Of a stretch of DNA of 64,000 nucleotides, positions 5,709 through 57,007 are shown in pieces. Numbering within the stretch: the first letter of the stretch is position 1; each line of letters starts with the position of its first letter. The DNA lies in assembly GCF_034661235.1 (NCBI RefSeq), contig NZ_CP141059.1, forward strand, positions 4,153,501 to 4,217,500. The letters run 5' to 3'. This DNA is from Nocardioides bizhenqiangii (lineage in GTDB: Bacteria > Actinomycetota > Actinomycetes > Propionibacteriales > Nocardioidaceae). The translations under genes were made by a program, and so were the position numbers. The notes beneath the pieces were generated by a model. It was not told where the DNA came from. It saw nothing but the letters and a program-made list of their open reading frames with translations, and ran no database searches.

Positions 5709-8700
5709 TCAGTGGCAGATCGCGGTCAGCCGGTCGTCGTCCTTCGGACCGCCGCCGGGCGTGGTGCTGAAGACGTGGCAGCCCCTCGTCACGCCGTCCA
5801 CCCGCAGGTAGCCGCGGTCCCGAACGGCGGGGGTCGCCCGCCCGTCGACGTACACGACATCCGCGGCGGCGTCACCCGCCGGCACGTGCACCGATGCGAC
5901 CGTGTTGCCGGGCAAGTAGGCCCCGACGTCGGTGCGGCCGTCGACGGTGTGGAACGCCGCGCCGATCCGTCCCTTGAGGGTCGGAAGGGTCACGTGCGCC
6001 CAATCGACCGACTGCGGCTGCGGACGCACCGCGAAGGTGGCGTAGCCCGGGGTGGTCGGCCGGATGCCGAACATGCCCTGCGGCAGGTTGTACGCCGGCG
6101 ACGCCGCCCACGGGTGCGAGTAGGTCATGTTCGACTTCAGGGAGGCGTCCCACGCCTCCGCCGTCGCGCCCGCCCCGTCGTTGATCATGTTCAGCCAACT
6201 GCGGGTGCCGTCGCCGGTGAGCAGGTCGAGGGCGAGATCGGAGCGATCGCCGTTGTAGAGCGACTCGATGAGGAACGCCGCGCAGTAGACGCTGCACTGC
6301 ATCCCGCGCGAGCCGATGTAGTCGGCGGCGCGCGCGGCTCGCTCGTCGTCCGGCACCCCGAACGCGCTGGCGAACACACTGGCGTGGACGGCCCAATGGG
6401 CGACCGGCGTCCGGTCGGCGTTGAGGCCGTCCCGGTAGGCGCCCAAGCTGTCGTCCCACAACCACTGGTTGATCGCTTCGCGGAGCTGGGTGCCCGTGCT
6501 CCGGAACGACGCCGCGTCGGTGTCCTTCCCCAGCGCCTCGGCGATGGCCGCCATGTCCATGAAGCTGCGGTAGCCGATCGCGTTGATGACGGTGTTGTAG
6601 GGGCGGAAGACGTAGCCGTCGCGCTCCGAGGTCGGCCAGTCGACGATGTCGCAGTCGGTCTGGCTGCTGCAGCCGTTGGACCGGAAGTCCTTGCGGATCA
6701 GGCCGGTCGACGGCTCCACCCACTCGCTCGGCAGCTTCTGGACCAGCTGGTCGTAGCTGCGCTCGAGCTGGGCCACGTCGCCGGTCTGCTGGTAGCTGTC
6801 GTGCATCGCGAGGATCGTGTACATCGGCCACTCGGTCGGCCAGGTGCGCCGGGTGAGCAGGTAGTCGATCGAGTAGTTGCCGAGCGTCGGGTCCGACGAC
6901 GTGAAGAAGTTGGCCATCATCTGCAGGTAGCTGTCGGCCTCGTAGGGCTCGCGCTCGCGGGTCCACGAGTCGACGTAGAGGTTGTGGTTGGTCGCCTCCA
7001 CGGTGTTGCGCGAGAGCTCCCAGACCTGGTTGAGGGCGTCGTCGGACGAGCTGAACACGGCGCCGTCGGTGTCGAACGGGTAGACCTGCGCGAGCGCCGG
7101 GAAGTCCTCGGCCGTCAGCCCGGGCGGGGCGCCGAGCACCTCGAGGTAGCGGAAGACCCGCATGCCCCAGGTCTCCAGGTGCTGCGGTCCGTCTGCAAGG
7201 GTCCAGCGGTCCTGGTAGCTGTTGCCGGTGCGCATCGCGTAGCGCACGGTCTGGGGAGCGGCCAACTCCTCGCCGAACCGCAGGTCGACGACCTGGCCGG
7301 CGGTCCCGTCGAGGTCGAGGCTGACGCCCCCGACCCAGGTCCGGCCGTAGTCCACGAAGTAGTGCCCGGGCGCCTTCTCGACGACCTCGACCGGCAGCTC
7401 GAGGCGCTGGGCCACTTTGTCGGTCGGCGTCGCCATGAGGGCGTCGTACGGCGCCTTCGTCGTCGCCGGCTGCCAGCCGCTGTCGTCGAAGCCGGGCATG
7501 TCGAAGCCGACGGGGTACGCCGCCGCCTGGAGGTTCTCCTTCGGCGCGGTGAAGTAGCTGGTGCCGATCGAGCCCGCCGACGGGAAGACCGAGCTGCCGG
7601 GCATCGTGGTCCAGCCCTCACCGGTGCCGAACGTCTGCCGGCTGCCGTCGACGTACTCGACGACGACCTGGGCCTGGAACCGCTTGTCGCGCGTGGTCCA
7701 CGCCAGCGCACCGAGGGCGTTCTTGCCGCCCTCACGGACCAGGTCGGTGACGTCGAAACCGTCGTAGCGGGTCTCGGTGCTGATCGACCGGGTCGGTCCG
7801 AGGCCGACGAACCGGCCGTTGAGCCAGAGCTTGTAAACGTACTGGCGGCCCGGCTCCGGTGACGACCCGGTGGCGAAGGCGGTCGCCCACGCAATCTCCT
7901 TGCCGGGCGCGGTGTCGAACTCGCCGCGCAGGAACGCCCAGTCGGTGCCGCCGACGCCGTACACGCAGTTCTGGCCGGTGCCGATCGCGAGCCGTCCGCC
8001 GGAGACCGTCCCGCAGGGGAAGTCGGTGCTCGGCGCCTCGAAGTCGTTGTCGTAGAGGACGGTGCCGTCGGCGCCGGTCACGCTGAGGTCGTCCCAGGTG
8101 CTGCGCTCGCTGCCGCCGGTGCGGAAGCCGATGCTGCCGGTGGTGAAGCGCACGCCCTCGGTGGTGTCGACCAGGGTCCCGTCGAGGTAGGTGCGGACGG
8201 TCGAGCCCGACACCTCGATCCGGATCCGGTAGTCGGTGCCGCGCTGCAGGCTCACGCCGAGCGGGACGGTCTTGAGCTGGGTGAACGCGCCGTTGACCCG
8301 CTGGTGCGGCGCCAGCTGGTTGACCCCGTCGCCGCGGAACTGCCACATGAGGTAGTTGTCGTTGTCCTGGGCGTTGAAGACGATCGTGGCGTTCTGCGTG
8401 GTGATCGAGAACGTCGCCTCGAGCGTGTAGTCGCGCCACGCGAGGGCCGCGGATGCGCCGAGCCAGATCGGCCGGCTGTCGCCCCAGGTGTCCCCTAGCG
8501 CCGTACCGAAGTGGGCAGGGAGCGACCACGGCGAGGCCTTGTCGTCACCGCTCCAGGTCCGCACCCGCCACTCGTACCCCTCTCCCGGCTCGAGCGCCGG
8601 ACCGGCGTACGGGACGTTCGTGCTGGCGGCCGACGCGATCCTGCCGGAGTCCCACACCAAGCGGCCGGAGGCCAGTGCCGACCGGGAGGTGGCGACCTGC

Positions 8701-46730: not shown

Positions 46731-47918
46731 TCAGTCGAGCAGACCAGTGACGGTGCCGGCGGCCACGGTCCGTCCGCCCTCGCGGACGGCGAAGCCGAGA
46801 CCGACCTCCATCGCGACCGGCTTTCCGAGATCGACGGTCACTTCGACCGTGTCACCGGGCATCACCAGCGCCACTTCCCCGAGGTCCATGCCTCCGGAGA
46901 CGTCGGTCGTCCGGAAGTAGAACTGCGGGCGGTAGTCCGCGGCGAACGGCGTGTGCCGACCACCTTCGGCGGCGGTCAGTGCATGCAGGTTCGCGGTGAA
47001 CCTGGCATGCGGCATCACCGAACCGGGCGCGCCGAGCACCTGGCCCCGGCGGACGTCCTCACGACGTACGCCACGAAGCAGCACCGCGGCGTTGTCGCCG
47101 GCCCGGACCTCCTCCAGGGTCTTGCCGAAGGTCTCCAACCCGGTCGCCACGCTCGCGACCGTCGGACCGAGCCCGACGACCTCGACGGCATCGCCGACGC
47201 GGAGCGATCCCCGCTCGACAGCACCGGTGACCACCGTGCCCCGGCCGCTGATCGTGAGCACGCTCTCGATCGGCATCAGGAACGGCTCGCCGAGCTCGCG
47301 GTCGGGCACCGGCACGTAGTCGTCGACGGCCTGCAGGAGGTCCATGATCGACTGCGTCCACCGCGGGTCGCCCTCGAGCGCCTTGAGCGCGGACACCCGG
47401 ACGACGGGCACCTCCTCGCCGGGGAACCCGTACTCGCCGAGCAGCTCACGAACCTCCAGCTCGACCAGGTCGAGCAGGTCCTCGTCCTCGACTGCGTCGG
47501 ACTTGTTGAGGGCCACTACGAGGTACGGCACGCCGACCCGCCGCGCGAGCAGCACGTGCTCCCGCGTCTGCGGCATCGCGCCGTCCTGCGCGGACACGAC
47601 GAGGATCGCCGCATCCACCTGGGCAGCGCCGGTGATCATGTTCTTCACGTAGTCCGCGTGGCCCGGCATGTCGACGTGGGCGTAGTGACGGGTCGCCGTC
47701 TCGTACTCCACGTGCGCGATGTTGATGGTGATCCCACGCTGGATCTCCTCCGGCGCCCGGTCGATCCCGTCGAAGGACACGAAGGTGTTCTGACCCGGGT
47801 CGGCGTCCGCGAGCACCTTGGTGATCGCGGCGGTCAGCGTCGTCTTGCCGTGGTCGACGTGACCCATCGTCCCGATGTTGAGGTGCGGCTTGGTCCGCAT
47901 GAACTGGCTCTTGGCCAT
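46731..47918 (-). CDS. tuf: Elongation factor Tu, stand-alone paralogue (395 aa)
   Basis: GTPase delivering aminoacyl-tRNA to the ribosome. ATG 47918 ([33 protein letters not shown]). G motifs: [29 protein letters not shown]; domains 2 and 3 follow with [13 protein letters not shown] and [25 protein letters not shown]. It departs from the usual actinobacterial sequence at several positions (DMPGHADY and NKSD rather than DAPGHADY and NKAD) and has an atypical end ([10 protein letters not shown]). It is not in an rpsL-rpsG-fusA-tuf operon, so it is probably a second, divergent copy like Streptomyces tuf3. A structured leader precedes it. Confidence 0.93.
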
Positions 47919-47976
47919 GGCAGTGCTTTCTGTGAGTGATTCGCAGGCGTACGACGTGGCAGGGCGGCGTGCCAGA

Positions 47977-48120
47977 CCGCCCGCGCCCGGGACCGGGCGG
48001 AACTGCCGACCCTCCTCCTTCGGTCCCGCTGGGGCGGGAGGAGGGTCAGCGTCGCGCGCCGGCGAGGTGCAGGTTCGCGCCGTCAGCGCAGGGCGCTGCA
48101 ACCGACAGAGGGGCTGTCGG
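47977..48120 (-). promoter_or_regulatory. Structured leader of the EF-Tu paralogue: four hairpins
   Basis: Four perfect stems lie in a row within 145 bases: CCGCCCG/CGGGCGG (47977-48000), GACCCTCCTCC/GGAGGAGGGTC (48008-48047, 11 bp), CAGCGC/GCGCTG (48084-48098) and CCGACAG/CTGTCGG (48102-48120). They lie 58-202 bases upstream of the tuf start. They could be a terminator for the upstream gene, an attenuator, or mRNA control of tuf; no known riboswitch is recognised. Confidence 0.6.
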
Positions 48121-50319: not shown

Positions 50320-50339
50320 GGTTGGCCAGACGGCCAACC
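50320..50339. promoter_or_regulatory. Palindrome in the phoX-like / pls divergent region
   Basis: GGTTGGCC-N4-GGCCAACC, perfect 8-bp arms, in the 227-bp region between divergent genes, 76 bp from the phoX-like start and 132 bp from the pls start. It has operator geometry for a dimeric regulator; no regulator gene is adjacent. Confidence 0.5.
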
Positions 50340-50471: not shown

Positions 50472-53400
50472 GTGCCCCCGCCTGCGACGCCGTTGCTGCG
50501 TGGCCACCTCGCACCTCCGCCGCGGACTCTCGTCGACATCTTCCGCGAGACAGTTGCCCAGGCCCCCCATGACAGTGCTGTGGACGCCGGCACAGGCGTG
50601 CTCACCTACGCCGAGCTCGAGGAGGCGGCCGACGAGCTCGCCTCCGAGCTGAATGCTCATGGTGTCGGACCCGGCGACAAGGTAGGGGTGCGGGCCGCCT
50701 CGGGCACGACCGACCTCTACGTGGCGATCCTCGGAGTCCTCGTCGCCGGCGCGGCGTACGTGCCGGTCGATGTGGACGACCCGGATGAACGCGCCCGGCT
50801 GGTGTTCGACGAGGCCGACGTCACCGCAATCGTGGGCAACGACCGCGTGGTCGTCTGGCGGAGGGAAGGCCCTGCTCTCGAGCCACGCGACCCTGGCTTG
50901 GACGACGACGCGTGGGTGATCTTCACCAGCGGCTCCACCGGAACCCCGAAGGGGGTGGCGGTGACGCACCGGAACGCCGCAGCCTTCGTCGACGCGGAGG
51001 CCCGCATGTTCCTCCAGGAAGCGCCCCTCGGTGTTGGTGACCGGGTGATGGCCGGGCTGAGCGTGGCCTTCGACGCCTCGTGCGAGGAGATGTGGCTGGC
51101 GTGGCGTTACGGCGCCTGCCTCGTTCCGGCGCCGCGGGCACTGGTGCGTACGGGCATCGACGTCGGCCCCTGGCTGGTCGCCAACGAGATCACCGTTGTC
51201 TCGACAGTGCCCACCTTGGTGGCGCTGTGGCCGCTGGAGTCGCTCGAGCAGGTGCGCCTCCTCATCATGGGGGGTGAAGCCTGCCCGCCGGAGCTGGCCA
51301 GCCGCCTCCTCGCGCCCGGTCGCGAAGTCTGGAACACCTACGGCCCCACCGAGGCGACTGTGGTCGCTTGCGGCGCGCGGCTGAGCGACGACGGGCTGGT
51401 GCGGATCGGACTGCCGCTCGACGGGTGGGACCTCGCCGTCGTCGATGCCGACGGCCAGCCGGTCGGCGAGGGCGAGTCAGGCGAGCTCATCATCGGTGGC
51501 GTCGGGCTCGCCCGTTACCTCGATCCCGAGAAGGACGCCGAGAAGTACGCACCGATGCCGTCACTGGGGTGGGACCGCGCGTACCGGAGTGGCGACGTGG
51601 TGATCTATGACTCCGCCGGGCTGTTCTTCCAGGGTCGGGCCGACGACCAGGTCAAGCTGGGTGGTCGACGTGTCGAGCTCGGCGAGATCGACAGCGCGCT
51701 CCTCGCACTCCCTGGGGTGGTTGCCGCGGCCGCTGCCGTGCGGAGGACGGCTGCCGGCAACAGGCTCCTGGTCGGCTACATAGCCACGAATGCATCGTTC
51801 GACCAAGCCAGCGCCGTCGAGTCCTTGCGCCGTTCGATGCCGGCACCCTTGGTGCCACGACTGGCACTCGTCGAGGCCTTGCCGACCCGAACCTCGGGCA
51901 AGGTCGACCGCGACGCGCTCGCTTGGCCGCTGCCACCGGCCACGACGAGCACGGCGCTCCGGGGTACGGCGGCGTGGATCGCCGAGCTCTGGAACGAAGT
52001 GCTCGCAGCCCAGCCCACAACCGTCACCGACGACTTCTTCGACCTCGGCGGCGGGAGCCTGACGGCGGCTCAGATGGTGTCGCTGCTTCGCAGCCGCTTC
52101 CCTGATGCTGCGGTGGGTGACATCTACGAGCATCCGACCGTGGGCGCTCTCGCTACCTACCTGGACGGCCTGGCCACCCCTGGTCCGGCGTCAACGCGAG
52201 CCGTGCGGCCGATCCCTCTGAAGAGCCAGCTCGGACAGGTCGCCGCCACCCTGATGGTGCGCTCCCTCGGCGGCCTCCAGTGGCTGGCGTGGGTCGGCCT
52301 CGGGTGCCAGCTCGGCGCCAGCCTGCTCGGCATGGGCTGGCTTCCTCAGCCCTCGTGGTGGCTGGTCGTGCCCGCCTGGCTGGTCTTGGTCAGCGCCCCG
52401 GGTCGGATGCTCCTGGCGGCGGGCTTCGCGCGGCTCCTGCTCCGACCTGTCACTCCCGGCAACCACCCCCGCGGCGGTCGGATCCACCTCCGGTTGTGGC
52501 TCGCCCAGCACGTGGTCGACGAGCTGCGCGCCGTCAGCCTCGCCGGCGCCCCATGGATCACGTGGTACGCGAGGCTGCTCGGGGCGAAGATCGGTCGCGA
52601 CGTCGACCTGCACAGCATCCCGCCCGTGACCGGCATGCTCCGGCTGGGGAAGGGCGCCTCGATCGAGCCCGAGGTGGACCTCACCGGCTTCTGGGTCGAT
52701 GGCGACGTCGTGCACGTCGGCCCGATCTCGGTGGGGGCACGGGCCCGGGTCGGCGCCCGCAGCATGCTGTGCCCGGGCGCAGTGGTGGAGGCCGATGCCG
52801 AGGTCGCCCCTGGCGCGTCGGTCTTCGGCACCGTGCCCGCGGGCGAGTTCTGGTCGGGGTCGCCGGCCGTCAGGGTCTCCCGGACCGCGCGTGGCCCCTG
52901 GCGGGACCGGCCGGCCAGCAGCCCGCTGTGGGTGGCGGCGTACGGCGCGGTCGCGGCGTTCCTGTCTGTCATTCCCCTGCTCGGGATCGTCGGCGGCGCG
53001 GCGATACCGCTCCTGGTGGCCGAGCGCCCGACGGGCTTCGCCGACGCACTGGCGCTGCTCCCCTGGTTGCCGGTCTCGACGCTCGCCGGCCTGGTCACCG
53101 TGGCCGTCCTGGTGTGGGCCGTGGTCCGCCTGGCAGCCCGGGCGATCGTGCCCGGCGTACACCCGGTGCGCAGTCGGGCGGCGCTGGCGGTGTGGACGAC
53201 GATCCGCGTGCTCGACGAGGCGCGGACCTGGATCTTCCCGCTCTACTCCTCGATGCTGACGCCTGCCTGGCTGCGACTGCTCGGCGCTCGGGTCGGAACC
53301 GACGTCGAGGCGTCGACGGTGCTGATGGTGCCGTCGCTGACCCAGGTCAACGACCAAGCCTTCCTCGCCGACGACACCCTCATCGGCGGCTATGAACTAG

Positions 53401-54317
53401 GCGGTGGGTGGCTGCGGGTCGAACGGGTCAAGATCGGCAGACGGGCCTTCGTCGGCAACTCCGGCATGGCCGCCCCGGGGCGCAAGGTGCCCAAGGCCTC
53501 GCTCGTCGCGGTCCTCTCTGCCGCGCCGCGACGCAAGAGTGCGCGCTCCGGCGAATCCTGGCTGGGAAGCCCTCCGGCCGCGCTGCGGCGGGTGACCTCG
53601 GAGAGCGACTCTGGCCGCACCTACGCGCCACCCACCCGCCTCAAGATCGCGCGAGCCGGCTTCGAGCTCTGCCGCCTCATTCCCTGCACGCTGGCGATCG
53701 GACTCGCGACTGCCTTGGCGATCGTCCTGGTCGTCGTTCTGGATCGAGCCAATCCGGTCGTCGCCGTCCTTGTTGCCGGACCGGTGCTGGCCTTCGGCGG
53801 ACTTGTCGCAGCCTGCCTGACCGTGGTCGCCAAATGGCTGCTCGTCGGTCGCATGAGACCCGGTGCCCATCCGCTGTGGAGCTCGTTCGTCTGGCGCAAC
53901 GAGCTGGCCGACACCTTCGTCGAGGTCGTGGCGGCGCCCTGGTTCGCTCGCCCGGTGTCCGGCACTCCGCTGCTCAACGCGTGGTTCCGCGCAATGGGTG
54001 CCAGGATCGGCCGCGGCGTCTGGTGCGAGACCTACTGGCTGCCCGAAGCAGACCTGGTCGACCTCGGCGACGGTGCCACGGTCAACCCGGGCAGCGTGCT
54101 CCAGACCCACCTGTTCCACGACCGCGTTCTCAGCATGGACACCGTGGCGCTGCGGCGAGGCGCGACGCTGGGTCCGAACAGCGTGATCCTGCCGGCCGCG
54201 ATGCTGGGTCGTCACGCTACGGTCGGGCCTGTGTCGTTGGTGATGAGAGGCGAGTCCGTGCCGGACAAGACGAGCTGGATCGGCAACCCCATCGGTCCCT
54301 GGGCAGACCACTCGTGA
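50472..54317 (+). CDS. pls: Pls/PosA-type non-ribosomal peptide synthetase (1281 aa)
   Basis: Membrane-bound single-module synthetase of the type that makes homo-poly(amino acids) such as epsilon-poly-L-lysine. Adenylation domain (residues ~15-490): IFTSGSTGTPKGVAVTH, NTYGPTEATVV, YRSGDVV, and catalytic Lys in TSGKVDR (~477). Carrier domain: DLGGGSLTAAQ with the phosphopantetheine Ser near 528. The remaining 690 residues carry three pairs of membrane helices alternating with three hexapeptide (left-handed beta-helix-like) domains, the hallmark C-terminus; no thioesterase. Specificity residues aligned by hand to GrsA read D-A-E-S-I-G-T-V-V-K, of lysine/ornithine type. GTG 50472 is my best start; a TTG at 50322 gives a low-complexity extension. 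Confidence 0.88.
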   Translation: MPPPATPLLRGHLAPPPRTLVDIFRETVAQAPHDSAVDAGTGVLTYAELEEAADELASELNAHGVGPGDKVGVRAASGTTDLYVAILGVLVAGAAYVPVDVDDPDERARLVFDEADVTAIVGNDRVVVWRREGPALEPRDPGLDDDAWVIFTSGSTGTPKGVAVTHRNAAAFVDAEARMFLQEAPLGVGDRVMAGLSVAFDASCEEMWLAWRYGACLVPAPRALVRTGIDVGPWLVANEITVVSTVPTLVALWPLESLEQVRLLIMGGEACPPELASRLLAPGREVWNTYGPTEATVVACGARLSDDGLVRIGLPLDGWDLAVVDADGQPVGEGESGELIIGGVGLARYLDPEKDAEKYAPMPSLGWDRAYRSGDVVIYDSAGLFFQGRADDQVKLGGRRVELGEIDSALLALPGVVAAAAAVRRTAAGNRLLVGYIATNASFDQASAVESLRRSMPAPLVPRLALVEALPTRTSGKVDRDALAWPLPPATTSTALRGTAAWIAELWNEVLAAQPTTVTDDFFDLGGGSLTAAQMVSLLRSRFPDAAVGDIYEHPTVGALATYLDGLATPGPASTRAVRPIPLKSQLGQVAATLMVRSLGGLQWLAWVGLGCQLGASLLGMGWLPQPSWWLVVPAWLVLVSAPGRMLLAAGFARLLLRPVTPGNHPRGGRIHLRLWLAQHVVDELRAVSLAGAPWITWYARLLGAKIGRDVDLHSIPPVTGMLRLGKGASIEPEVDLTGFWVDGDVVHVGPISVGARARVGARSMLCPGAVVEADAEVAPGASVFGTVPAGEFWSGSPAVRVSRTARGPWRDRPASSPLWVAAYGAVAAFLSVIPLLGIVGGAAIPLLVAERPTGFADALALLPWLPVSTLAGLVTVAVLVWAVVRLAARAIVPGVHPVRSRAALAVWTTIRVLDEARTWIFPLYSSMLTPAWLRLLGARVGTDVEASTVLMVPSLTQVNDQAFLADDTLIGGYELGGGWLRVERVKIGRRAFVGNSGMAAPGRKVPKASLVAVLSAAPRRKSARSGESWLGSPPAALRRVTSESDSGRTYAPPTRLKIARAGFELCRLIPCTLAIGLATALAIVLVVVLDRANPVVAVLVAGPVLAFGGLVAACLTVVAKWLLVGRMRPGAHPLWSSFVWRNELADTFVEVVAAPWFARPVSGTPLLNAWFRAMGARIGRGVWCETYWLPEADLVDLGDGATVNPGSVLQTHLFHDRVLSMDTVALRRGATLGPNSVILPAAMLGRHATVGPVSLVMRGESVPDKTSWIGNPIGPWADHS

Positions 54318-55642
54318 GTCTGCGCAACAGCGCCGACCTTCCGACGTCCGACCCTTACCTCCCGGGCCACGGAGACCCGGCGTGGAGCGCCACCCACTAC
54401 GCCCTCGACCTCCAGTACGACGTGTCCGGCAACCGTCTGCGCGGTCAGGTCGTCCTCGATGCGGTCGCTGAGCACGACCTGACCCGGGTGGTCCTCGATC
54501 TCGCGCACCTGCGGGCTACGAAGGTGACCGTCGATGGCGCGGAACCGGCCAAGTACGCCGCCCGCGACAACCGCCTCGTCGTCACCCTCCGCCGTCCGCT
54601 CTCCGCCGGCACGAACTTCCGACTCCTGGTGAAGTACGAAGGACAGCCGCGCCCGCTCGTCGACCGCCACCATGGCGATGCTGGGTGGGAGGAGCTCGAG
54701 GACGGCGTGATCGTCGCGGGCCAGCCGCACGGCGCGCCGACCTGGTTCCCCTGCAACGACCGACCCGACAACAAGGCCTCGTACACGATCTCGGTGACGA
54801 CCCAACCCGAATACGTCGTCGTCGCCAACGGCGAGCTGGCCCTTCGACGCCGGCGCGGAGCCACCACGCGCTGGACCTACCAGCAGCTCGAGCCGATGGC
54901 CACGTACCTGGCGACGGTCCAGATCGGCCGCTACGAGCTTCGTGAGCTGGACGCCTCGGTTCCGATGCTCGCCGCCGTTCCGCCCGATGTCGGCGACGGG
55001 TTCGAGGCCGCGTTCGGCCGGCAACCCGAGATGCTGGTGGCCTTCACCGAACGGTTCGGTCCCTACCCCTTTCCCAGCTATACCGTCGTCGTCACTCCGG
55101 ACGACCTCGAGATTCCGCTGGAATCCCAGACGCTTTCGACGTTCGGGCGCAACTTCTGCCGCGACGACTGGGACGCGATCCGGCTCGTGGCGCATGAGCT
55201 GTCCCATCAATGGTTCGGCAACACAGCGACCCTTCGGGAGTGGAAGGACATCTGGCTGCATGAAGGCTTTGCCTGCTACAGCGAGTGGATCTGGTCCGAA
55301 GAGTCCGGAGGCGACTCAGCCGACACCTGGGCTCGCCGTCATCACGACCGACTCGCCGATCTGGAGCAGGACCTGGTGCTTGCCGACCCCGGCCCCGAGC
55401 TGATGTTCGACGACCGCCTGTACAAGCGCGGGGCGCTCACGTTGCACGCCGTTCGTCTCACCGTCGGGGACGACGCGTTCTTCGACCTTCTGCGCAGCTG
55501 GGTCACACACCATCGCGGCGGCACCGTCTCGACCGCCGAGTTCGTGGCCTTCGCCGGCGATCGGACCGGCACCGATCTCGACGACCTCTTCAAGTGCTGG
55601 TTGCAGCAGCCGGAGCTCCCGGACCTGCCAGCCGCCAGCTGA
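54314..55642 (+). CDS. M1-family zinc metallopeptidase (442 aa)
   Basis: Cytoplasmic or surface aminopeptidase-like enzyme. The zinc site is HELSHQWFGN with the third ligand in WLHEGFA 18 residues on; the substrate Tyr is probably in RLYKRG. The usual GxMEN exopeptidase motif is replaced by IPLESQTLS. It is about half the length of PepN because it lacks the large C-terminal domain. GTG 54314 overlaps the synthetase stop as GTGA, so production is coupled. Known epsilon-polylysine-degrading enzymes are, as I recall, M1-type zinc peptidases, which suggests product trimming or self-protection. No signal peptide is seen. Confidence 0.92.
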   Translation: MSLRNSADLPTSDPYLPGHGDPAWSATHYALDLQYDVSGNRLRGQVVLDAVAEHDLTRVVLDLAHLRATKVTVDGAEPAKYAARDNRLVVTLRRPLSAGTNFRLLVKYEGQPRPLVDRHHGDAGWEELEDGVIVAGQPHGAPTWFPCNDRPDNKASYTISVTTQPEYVVVANGELALRRRRGATTRWTYQQLEPMATYLATVQIGRYELRELDASVPMLAAVPPDVGDGFEAAFGRQPEMLVAFTERFGPYPFPSYTVVVTPDDLEIPLESQTLSTFGRNFCRDDWDAIRLVAHELSHQWFGNTATLREWKDIWLHEGFACYSEWIWSEESGGDSADTWARRHHDRLADLEQDLVLADPGPELMFDDRLYKRGALTLHAVRLTVGDDAFFDLLRSWVTHHRGGTVSTAEFVAFAGDRTGTDLDDLFKCWLQQPELPDLPAAS

Positions 55643-56089: not shown

Positions 56090-57007
56090 TCATCGTGGCG
56101 CGGTGGCCGGCCTCCCTGATCCACGTCGCCGACGCGTCGCCTGCGCGCCGTACCACCAACCGGCTGCCATGGTCCCGTCGGCAGCCGTGTGGGCCACCCG
56201 GGCCAACAGAGCCAGAGCGGTGGCGCCGGGGACGCCGAGCAGCGGCGTGAGGAGCACGACGAAGAGCGCCTCGCGAGCACCGAAGCCAGCCGGGGCCGCC
56301 ACGATGACGACGCCACTGGCGTACGCCAGCGCGAAGGCACCGCCGAAGGCGGCCATGTCGACCCACGGCCGACCAGGTGAGAGCAGCACGAGCGCGACGG
56401 AGTACGCCGACCAGGCGGCAGCCATCAGAGCAAGCAGCACGAGGGTGTCACCGAGATCGACGGCCACCTGGCGGCCGGCAACACGACTACCGGCACGGCG
56501 TACGACGACGGGAAGCAGGCCGAGCACCGAGGTGGCGAACAGGAGGACCGTCACCCCCGGGGGCCACGGCACGGCGAGGCCGCCGACGAGCACGACGACG
56601 GAGCTGGCGGCTACCCCAGTGGCGACGTGGTAGCCGAGGAAGAGCAAGCCCGCGGCGACGGTGGACCGGCGCGGTACCGAATTGCGCCCAGCCATCTGTG
56701 CTTGTGCCCCGATCGACCAGACCGATCCCGGGATGTACTTGCCCAGCTGTCCGACGAAGAACGTCGCGAGTCCGTCTCGCAGAGGTAGGTCTGCCCCTGC
56801 CACCCGCATCAGTCGCAGCCACACGAAGCCGGTGGCGAGCAGGCCGAGAAGGACCAGCACGAACGCCCCGGCGACGCCGAGAGCCGACGTGGCGCGGAGC
56901 GCCGCGCCCACCTCGTCCAGCCGACCATGCAGGCCGTACCACGCGAACACCGCCACGGCGACGAGGAAGGCCACCCGCAGCGCAGTCAGGTAGCGGGTGT
57001 CAGTCAC
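56090..57007 (-). CDS. LPG-synthase-TM (UPF0104) family membrane protein (305 aa)
   Basis: Integral membrane protein with about eight helices, of the family that includes the flippase half of MprF. Conserved segments are FFVGQLGKYIPGSVWSIGAQAQMAGRNSVPRRSTVAAGLLF and APAGFGAREALFVVLL. No lysyl-transferase domain is present. In glycosylation loci such proteins are thought to move lipid-linked intermediates. The start overlaps the upstream gene by 8 bp; the phosphopantetheinyl transferase follows after 77 bp. Confidence 0.88.
   Translation of the reverse strand: MTDTRYLTALRVAFLVAVAVFAWYGLHGRLDEVGAALRATSALGVAGAFVLVLLGLLATGFVWLRLMRVAGADLPLRDGLATFFVGQLGKYIPGSVWSIGAQAQMAGRNSVPRRSTVAAGLLFLGYHVATGVAASSVVVLVGGLAVPWPPGVTVLLFATSVLGLLPVVVRRAGSRVAGRQVAVDLGDTLVLLALMAAAWSAYSVALVLLSPGRPWVDMAAFGGAFALAYASGVVIVAAPAGFGAREALFVVLLTPLLGVPGATALALLARVAHTAADGTMAAGWWYGAQATRRRRGSGRPATAPR

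Follow-up and report, generated by a model that had tools for sequence, protein, structure and literature searches.

A predicted epsilon-poly-L-lysine synthetase gene of Nocardioides bizhenqiangii, its overlapping M1 peptidase gene and a convergent phosphopantetheinyl-transferase-like gene

The window, a stretch of 64,000 nucleotides of Nocardioides bizhenqiangii DNA, carries a predicted pls gene, an M1 metallopeptidase gene that overlaps its end and, on the opposite strand, a compact gene resembling phosphopantetheinyl transferases (Table 1). The pls frame is intact over 1281 aa, from GTG at 50472 to TGA at 54315-54317. An upstream extension of the frame is also open, back to TTG at 50322, and the GTG is the likelier start, since alignments with the full-length relatives begin at about residue 1-8. 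Also near pls lies a complete elongation factor Tu gene (window 46731-48101, minus strand; TIGR00485, 610 bits). The synthetase matches TIGR02353, the NCBIfam model of the Pls/PosA C-terminal domain, over residues 589-1274 with 678.1 bits against a cut-off of 423.1, which bears out the Pls/PosA-type synthetase proposed by an earlier, sequence-only reading of this DNA. It is the single complete gene of this kind in its own genome, the four other matches being fragments far below the cut-off. At E ≤ 0.001 its Pfam content is AMP-binding (24-348), PP-binding (502-564) and Hexapep (752-784), that is one A and one T domain, and no condensation or thioesterase domain is found at this threshold.

Table 1. 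Coordinates of the features in the window, with the basis of each assignment
Feature	Position	Strand	Basis or remark
pls, epsilon-poly-L-lysine synthetase (predicted)	50472..54317	+	1281 aa, GTG start
Adenylation domain, residues 1-490	50472..51941	+	aligned to 7wew residues 2-490, i-E 1e-183
Code residues D201 A202 E205 S244 I265 G267 T289 V297 V298 K477	adenylation domain	+	alignment
Carrier (T) domain, residues 502-564	51975..52163	+	PF00550, 48.3 bits
Membrane helix pair 1, residues 590-656	52239..52439	+	AlphaFold2 model
Domain C1, beta-helix, residues 663-816	52458..52919	+	model; Hexapep 752-784
Membrane helix pair 2, residues 819-889	52926..53138	+	AlphaFold2 model
Domain C2, beta-helix, residues 895-1050, partly low confidence	53154..53621	+	AlphaFold2 model
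Membrane helix pair 3, residues 1055-1124	53634..53843	+	AlphaFold2 model
Domain C3, beta-helix, residues 1131-1281	53862..54314	+	AlphaFold2 model; alignment
M1 metallopeptidase, pldII-like, 442 aa, GTG start	54314..55642	+	both M1 domains (Pfam); HELSH...E zinc motif
Compact Sfp-like phosphopantetheinyl-transferase-like gene, 167 aa	55590..56093	-	alignment, neighbourhood, co-occurrence

The C-terminal part was modelled with AlphaFold2 (residues 589-1281, alignment of 45 rows; mean pLDDT 83.9, pTM 0.87; stretches 423-430, 439-456 and 686-693 in model numbering are of low confidence). These 693 residues fold in the model as three repeats of a long membrane-helix pair, a strand, helices and a beta-helix, so three predicted helix pairs alternate with three soluble domains. 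The count of six helices comes from this model, as the hydropathy scan is crude, missing the first helix and merging the last pair. Together, Pfam, TIGR02353 and the model confirm the complete single-module A-T-(six helices, three beta-helix domains) layout that had been claimed for the protein. Foldseek matches of the model are hexapeptide acyltransferases, just one of them at E ≤ 0.001 (9.3e-4), so the domain type is right though the matches are weak; a PDB search with the C-terminal part likewise returned weak beta-helix enzymes only. Residues of C3 that are invariant in 54 aligned C-terminal parts, three of which are at 26-38% identity, include E1144, E1151, E1192, Q1211, H1213 and D1217. 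Since H1213 is the one His conserved in every aligned row and several invariant acids also lie in C3, our guess is that C3, among C1-C3, might be the bond-forming site. A mutational study of the tandem domains reportedly appeared in 2013, and this idea may already have been tested. Our literature search for a structural mechanism found none.

Alignment of the adenylation domain to GrsA, whose reference letters were checked against 1amu, places D A E S I G T V V K at GrsA positions 235, 236, 239, 278, 299, 301, 322, 330, 331 and 517. All ten residues that had been aligned by hand before (D235 A236 E239 S278 I299 G301 T322 V330 V331 K517) are thus reproduced. The comparison made at that time was with the lysine module of bacitracin synthetase, whose code is DAESIGSVCK. 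A closer one is offered by the top PDB match, 7wew (E 8.9e-184), named epsilon-poly-L-lysine synthase: it has DAESIGTVVK as well, agreeing at 10/10 code positions, and the two adenylation domains are 65% identical (306 of 473 aligned residues). The lysine-like specificity code is thereby upheld. We take 7wew to be the Streptomyces albulus enzyme, the PDB listing having the molecule name only. In the carrier domain the phosphopantetheine site is Ser529, within the motif GGGSL.

How far this code discriminates can be judged from a mixed alignment of 63 rows, from which L150 and L151 had been removed beforehand on length. DAESIGTVVK is present in 51 rows, including the window and 7wew; of the others, L130 is one place off, five start with DFE, two read DIWQSTADDK, three are without an aligned A domain and one is GrsA. 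The adenylation-domain tree has 60 rows (L139, L179 and L187, with no A domain aligned, were left out), and 52 of them form a lysine-code clade with support 100/100, in which the window stands together with 7wew, the sole characterised Pls in the tree. The five DFE-code rows, the two DIWQSTADDK rows and GrsA fall outside. Long-branch warnings concern GrsA, L119, L171 and L180, whose exact positions are unsure; the window is unaffected. Among close relatives the code is nearly invariant, being found in 121 of 123 loci; the exceptions are L130, with a single changed position, and L131, whose A domain lies in a different frame. Some loci represent the same genome, taken from two collections. We therefore rejected the code alone as proof within this group, where it marks clade membership and is not independent evidence. 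As separate observations, the DIWQSTADDK code was read in the A domains of L178 and L188, and L139/L187 (G272), L150, L151 and L179 have the Pls/PosA C-terminal domain at 25-27% identity with no A domain aligned.

The family makes polymers of several diamino acids and codes are only predictive, so an enzyme for ornithine, Dab or Dap has to be weighed. PosA, the delta-poly-L-ornithine synthetase of Acinetobacter baumannii, shares family and architecture with the window protein (the comparator 8g95 matches window residues 18-391, E 3.3e-53), and Dap/Dab-type synthetases have the same family architecture in the part of PMC4668381 available to us. According to the available part of the PosA paper, substrate length is read at code position 2, where lysine enzymes have Ala, PosA has Met and Dap/Dab enzymes have Phe (PMC10522769). 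The window synthetase has Ala202 there, neither the Met of PosA nor the Phe of the Dap/Dab type. The same source reports that changing Met218 of PosA to Ala raised lysine use and did not abolish ornithine use, and it describes the PosA operon as single-gene (PMC10522769). However, the code and clade of the window protein are those of 7wew, while the F-code enzymes are just 34-35% identical to it and lie outside the lysine clade, and specificity for another diamino acid appears unlikely.

The stop codon of pls and the start of the peptidase gene overlap by 4 bp (GTGA at 54314-54317), and this overlap together with the M1 domains marks an operon with a pldII-type peptidase. By eye, the peptidase has no obvious signal peptide. 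An M1 relative is present in 121 of the 123 loci L010-L132, missing in L119 and L132, and the 4-bp overlap with pls recurs in 48 of 80 named loci, the gap elsewhere being a few to 2139 bases. The M1 neighbour is absent in the lysine-code loci L161 (cut short), L170 and L180, and in L119. Four of the five DFE-code loci (L173, L174, L175 and L184) also carry a weaker M1 relative (37-38%), so the M1 neighbour was rejected as proof of lysine specificity. In S. albulus, pls and pldII are reported to overlap by 4 bp and to form a single operon (PMC4361855, seen in part); translational coupling of the pair and an aminopeptidase role of PldII outside the membrane are also described (PMC9223678, likewise in part). 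The lack of an obvious signal peptide in the window peptidase does not fit such a location and counts against the pls-pldII reading.

From the layout, the lysine code, the clade and the 4-bp peptidase overlap we conclude that the window gene is very probably pls, encoding a Pls that makes epsilon-poly-L-lysine. The sequence-only reading had predicted an epsilon-polylysine-like or related cationic homopolymer; this is supported, and the identity of the code with that of 7wew, the tree grouping and the conserved pls-pldII overlap sharpen the prediction to epsilon-poly-L-lysine. The presumed S. albulus Pls (7wew) is like the window enzyme in domain order, code, adenylation domain, gene order and overlap; it comes from a different actinomycete family, and the comparison covers its adenylation domain. 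The window protein shares 53% identity with L169, a copy on a Streptomyces plasmid that bears the name pls; the annotation there shows no adjacent gene for a phosphopantetheinyl transferase. The Pls of Corynebacterium variabile has, by description, the same architecture and peptidase operon, and its product was proven heterologously: the gene makes epsilon-polylysine in S. coelicolor and is silent in its own host (PMC8117764, available part). By analogy, the window pls may not be expressed in its natural host either.

A decayed or silent gene without product is nevertheless very unlikely. Two copies in the genus do look broken, one split over two frames (G046, L131) and one matching residues 4-496 only, approximately the A domain (G049, L132), but the window frame is intact and retains the lysine code, the carrier serine and the conserved C-domain residues. 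Still less probable is an epsilon-poly-beta-lysine synthetase fed by lysine 2,3-aminomutase. A single radical-SAM gene of the KamA family is present in the genome (C1:2345035-2346123), which however stays under every curated cut-off (152 versus 199 bits; 166 versus 525 for lysine 2,3-aminomutase) and lies about 1.86 Mb from pls, whereas in the known beta-lysine case the aminomutase gene is adjacent to the synthetase gene (PMC10522769, available part).

If epsilon-poly-L-lysine is the product, the enzyme would by analogy work as follows. A phosphopantetheinyl transferase would arm Ser529, and the adenylation domain would activate L-lysine with ATP and load the carrier. The membrane-bound C1-C3 would then act as acyltransferase, moving the loaded lysyl to the epsilon-amino group of free lysine or of the growing chain, which would be held non-covalently during polymerisation. 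The polymer would leave the cell, and the co-translated M1 peptidase may trim or degrade it, protecting the producer. Activation, loading and transfer by the C-domains to an acceptor that is free and bound non-covalently are given as the mechanism in the part of a review available to us (PMC9205021).

The organism had been thought not usually named as a producer, but the sense of rarity does not hold. A pls match at E ≤ 1e-100 is found in 43 of 98 Nocardioides genomes, own genome counted, and 73 of 296 genomes of the class pass the TIGR02353 cut-off. The protein search scored 7996 candidates, of which at least 7545 pass E ≤ 1e-100, and among the 120 matches listed many are named by NCBI as Pls/PosA family proteins of Nocardioides. 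Named relatives (best 80 of 585) include Nocardioides, Aeromicrobium, Rhodococcus, Nocardia and Mycobacterium; Corynebacterium, Brevibacterium and others were reported earlier to have pls (PMC8117764, available part). The window pls is an ordinary member of a known, widespread system. Among the papers listed by a literature search on Nocardioides with polylysine or NAPAA, judged by titles and the starts of abstracts, none reports a Nocardioides producer. One genome of the sample, G084, has two synthetases, a normal pls and the divergent lysine-code L119 (43-45% identical), whose pls-like frame ends near 6952 on the minus strand and has no M1 gene in its 17-kb locus.

The third gene of the locus converges on the peptidase gene; ATG at 56093 was chosen as its start and other starts are possible. 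Its product matches Pfam ACPS only below threshold (E 0.23; three relatives give 0.0036, 0.02 and 0.00012). In an alignment of fifteen relatives the shared motifs are HGxP, GxDxE and a W.R.E...K-like one, presumably the pattern of Sfp-type phosphopantetheinyl transferases, together with CxxC. In the KE motif of the window protein Leu replaces the canonical Lys, a position that varies among relatives. By Pfam the genome has just one other transferase of the superfamily, a frame of 124 aa, which is the size of AcpS, though the same search missed the window gene, so others may be missed too.

Of the 88 loci that extend far enough to show it (1 kb or more), 24 have a convergent relative next to the M1 gene. 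Across Nocardioides a transferase profile matches 53 of 98 genomes, 42 of 43 with pls versus 11 of 55 without (Fisher exact test, P-value = 4.8e-16, kinship ignored), though the profile was built from 15 pls-adjacent proteins and leans to such genes, six of them coming from the tested genomes (the window, L123, L125, L126, L129 and L130). After removal of the 12 pls genomes with a pls-adjacent match, 30 of 31 still have the transferase elsewhere, versus 11 of 55 without pls. G084 is the sole pls genome without a profile match. A strong match was also seen at G070:C2:1612645-1613139, in a genome without pls at E ≤ 1e-100. It is as likely as not that the convergent gene is a minimal Sfp-type transferase whose dedicated task is to arm Pls, and that Nocardioides and several other actinobacterial lineages acquired and retained it along with pls. 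Our literature search, as far as its sources were available, returned no report linking such a gene to pls.

Epsilon-polylysine occurs naturally as an antimicrobial and serves to preserve food. Polylysine genes are known to be spread beyond Streptomyces, mostly as untested candidates, and the window gene is one more, well supported; judging by the genus sample, Nocardioides could be a source of the polymer. If the role of the convergent gene is as proposed, pls-pldII with this gene would form a self-sufficient polylysine cassette, and the linked transferase-like gene would offer a reason why pls alone might fail in a new host.
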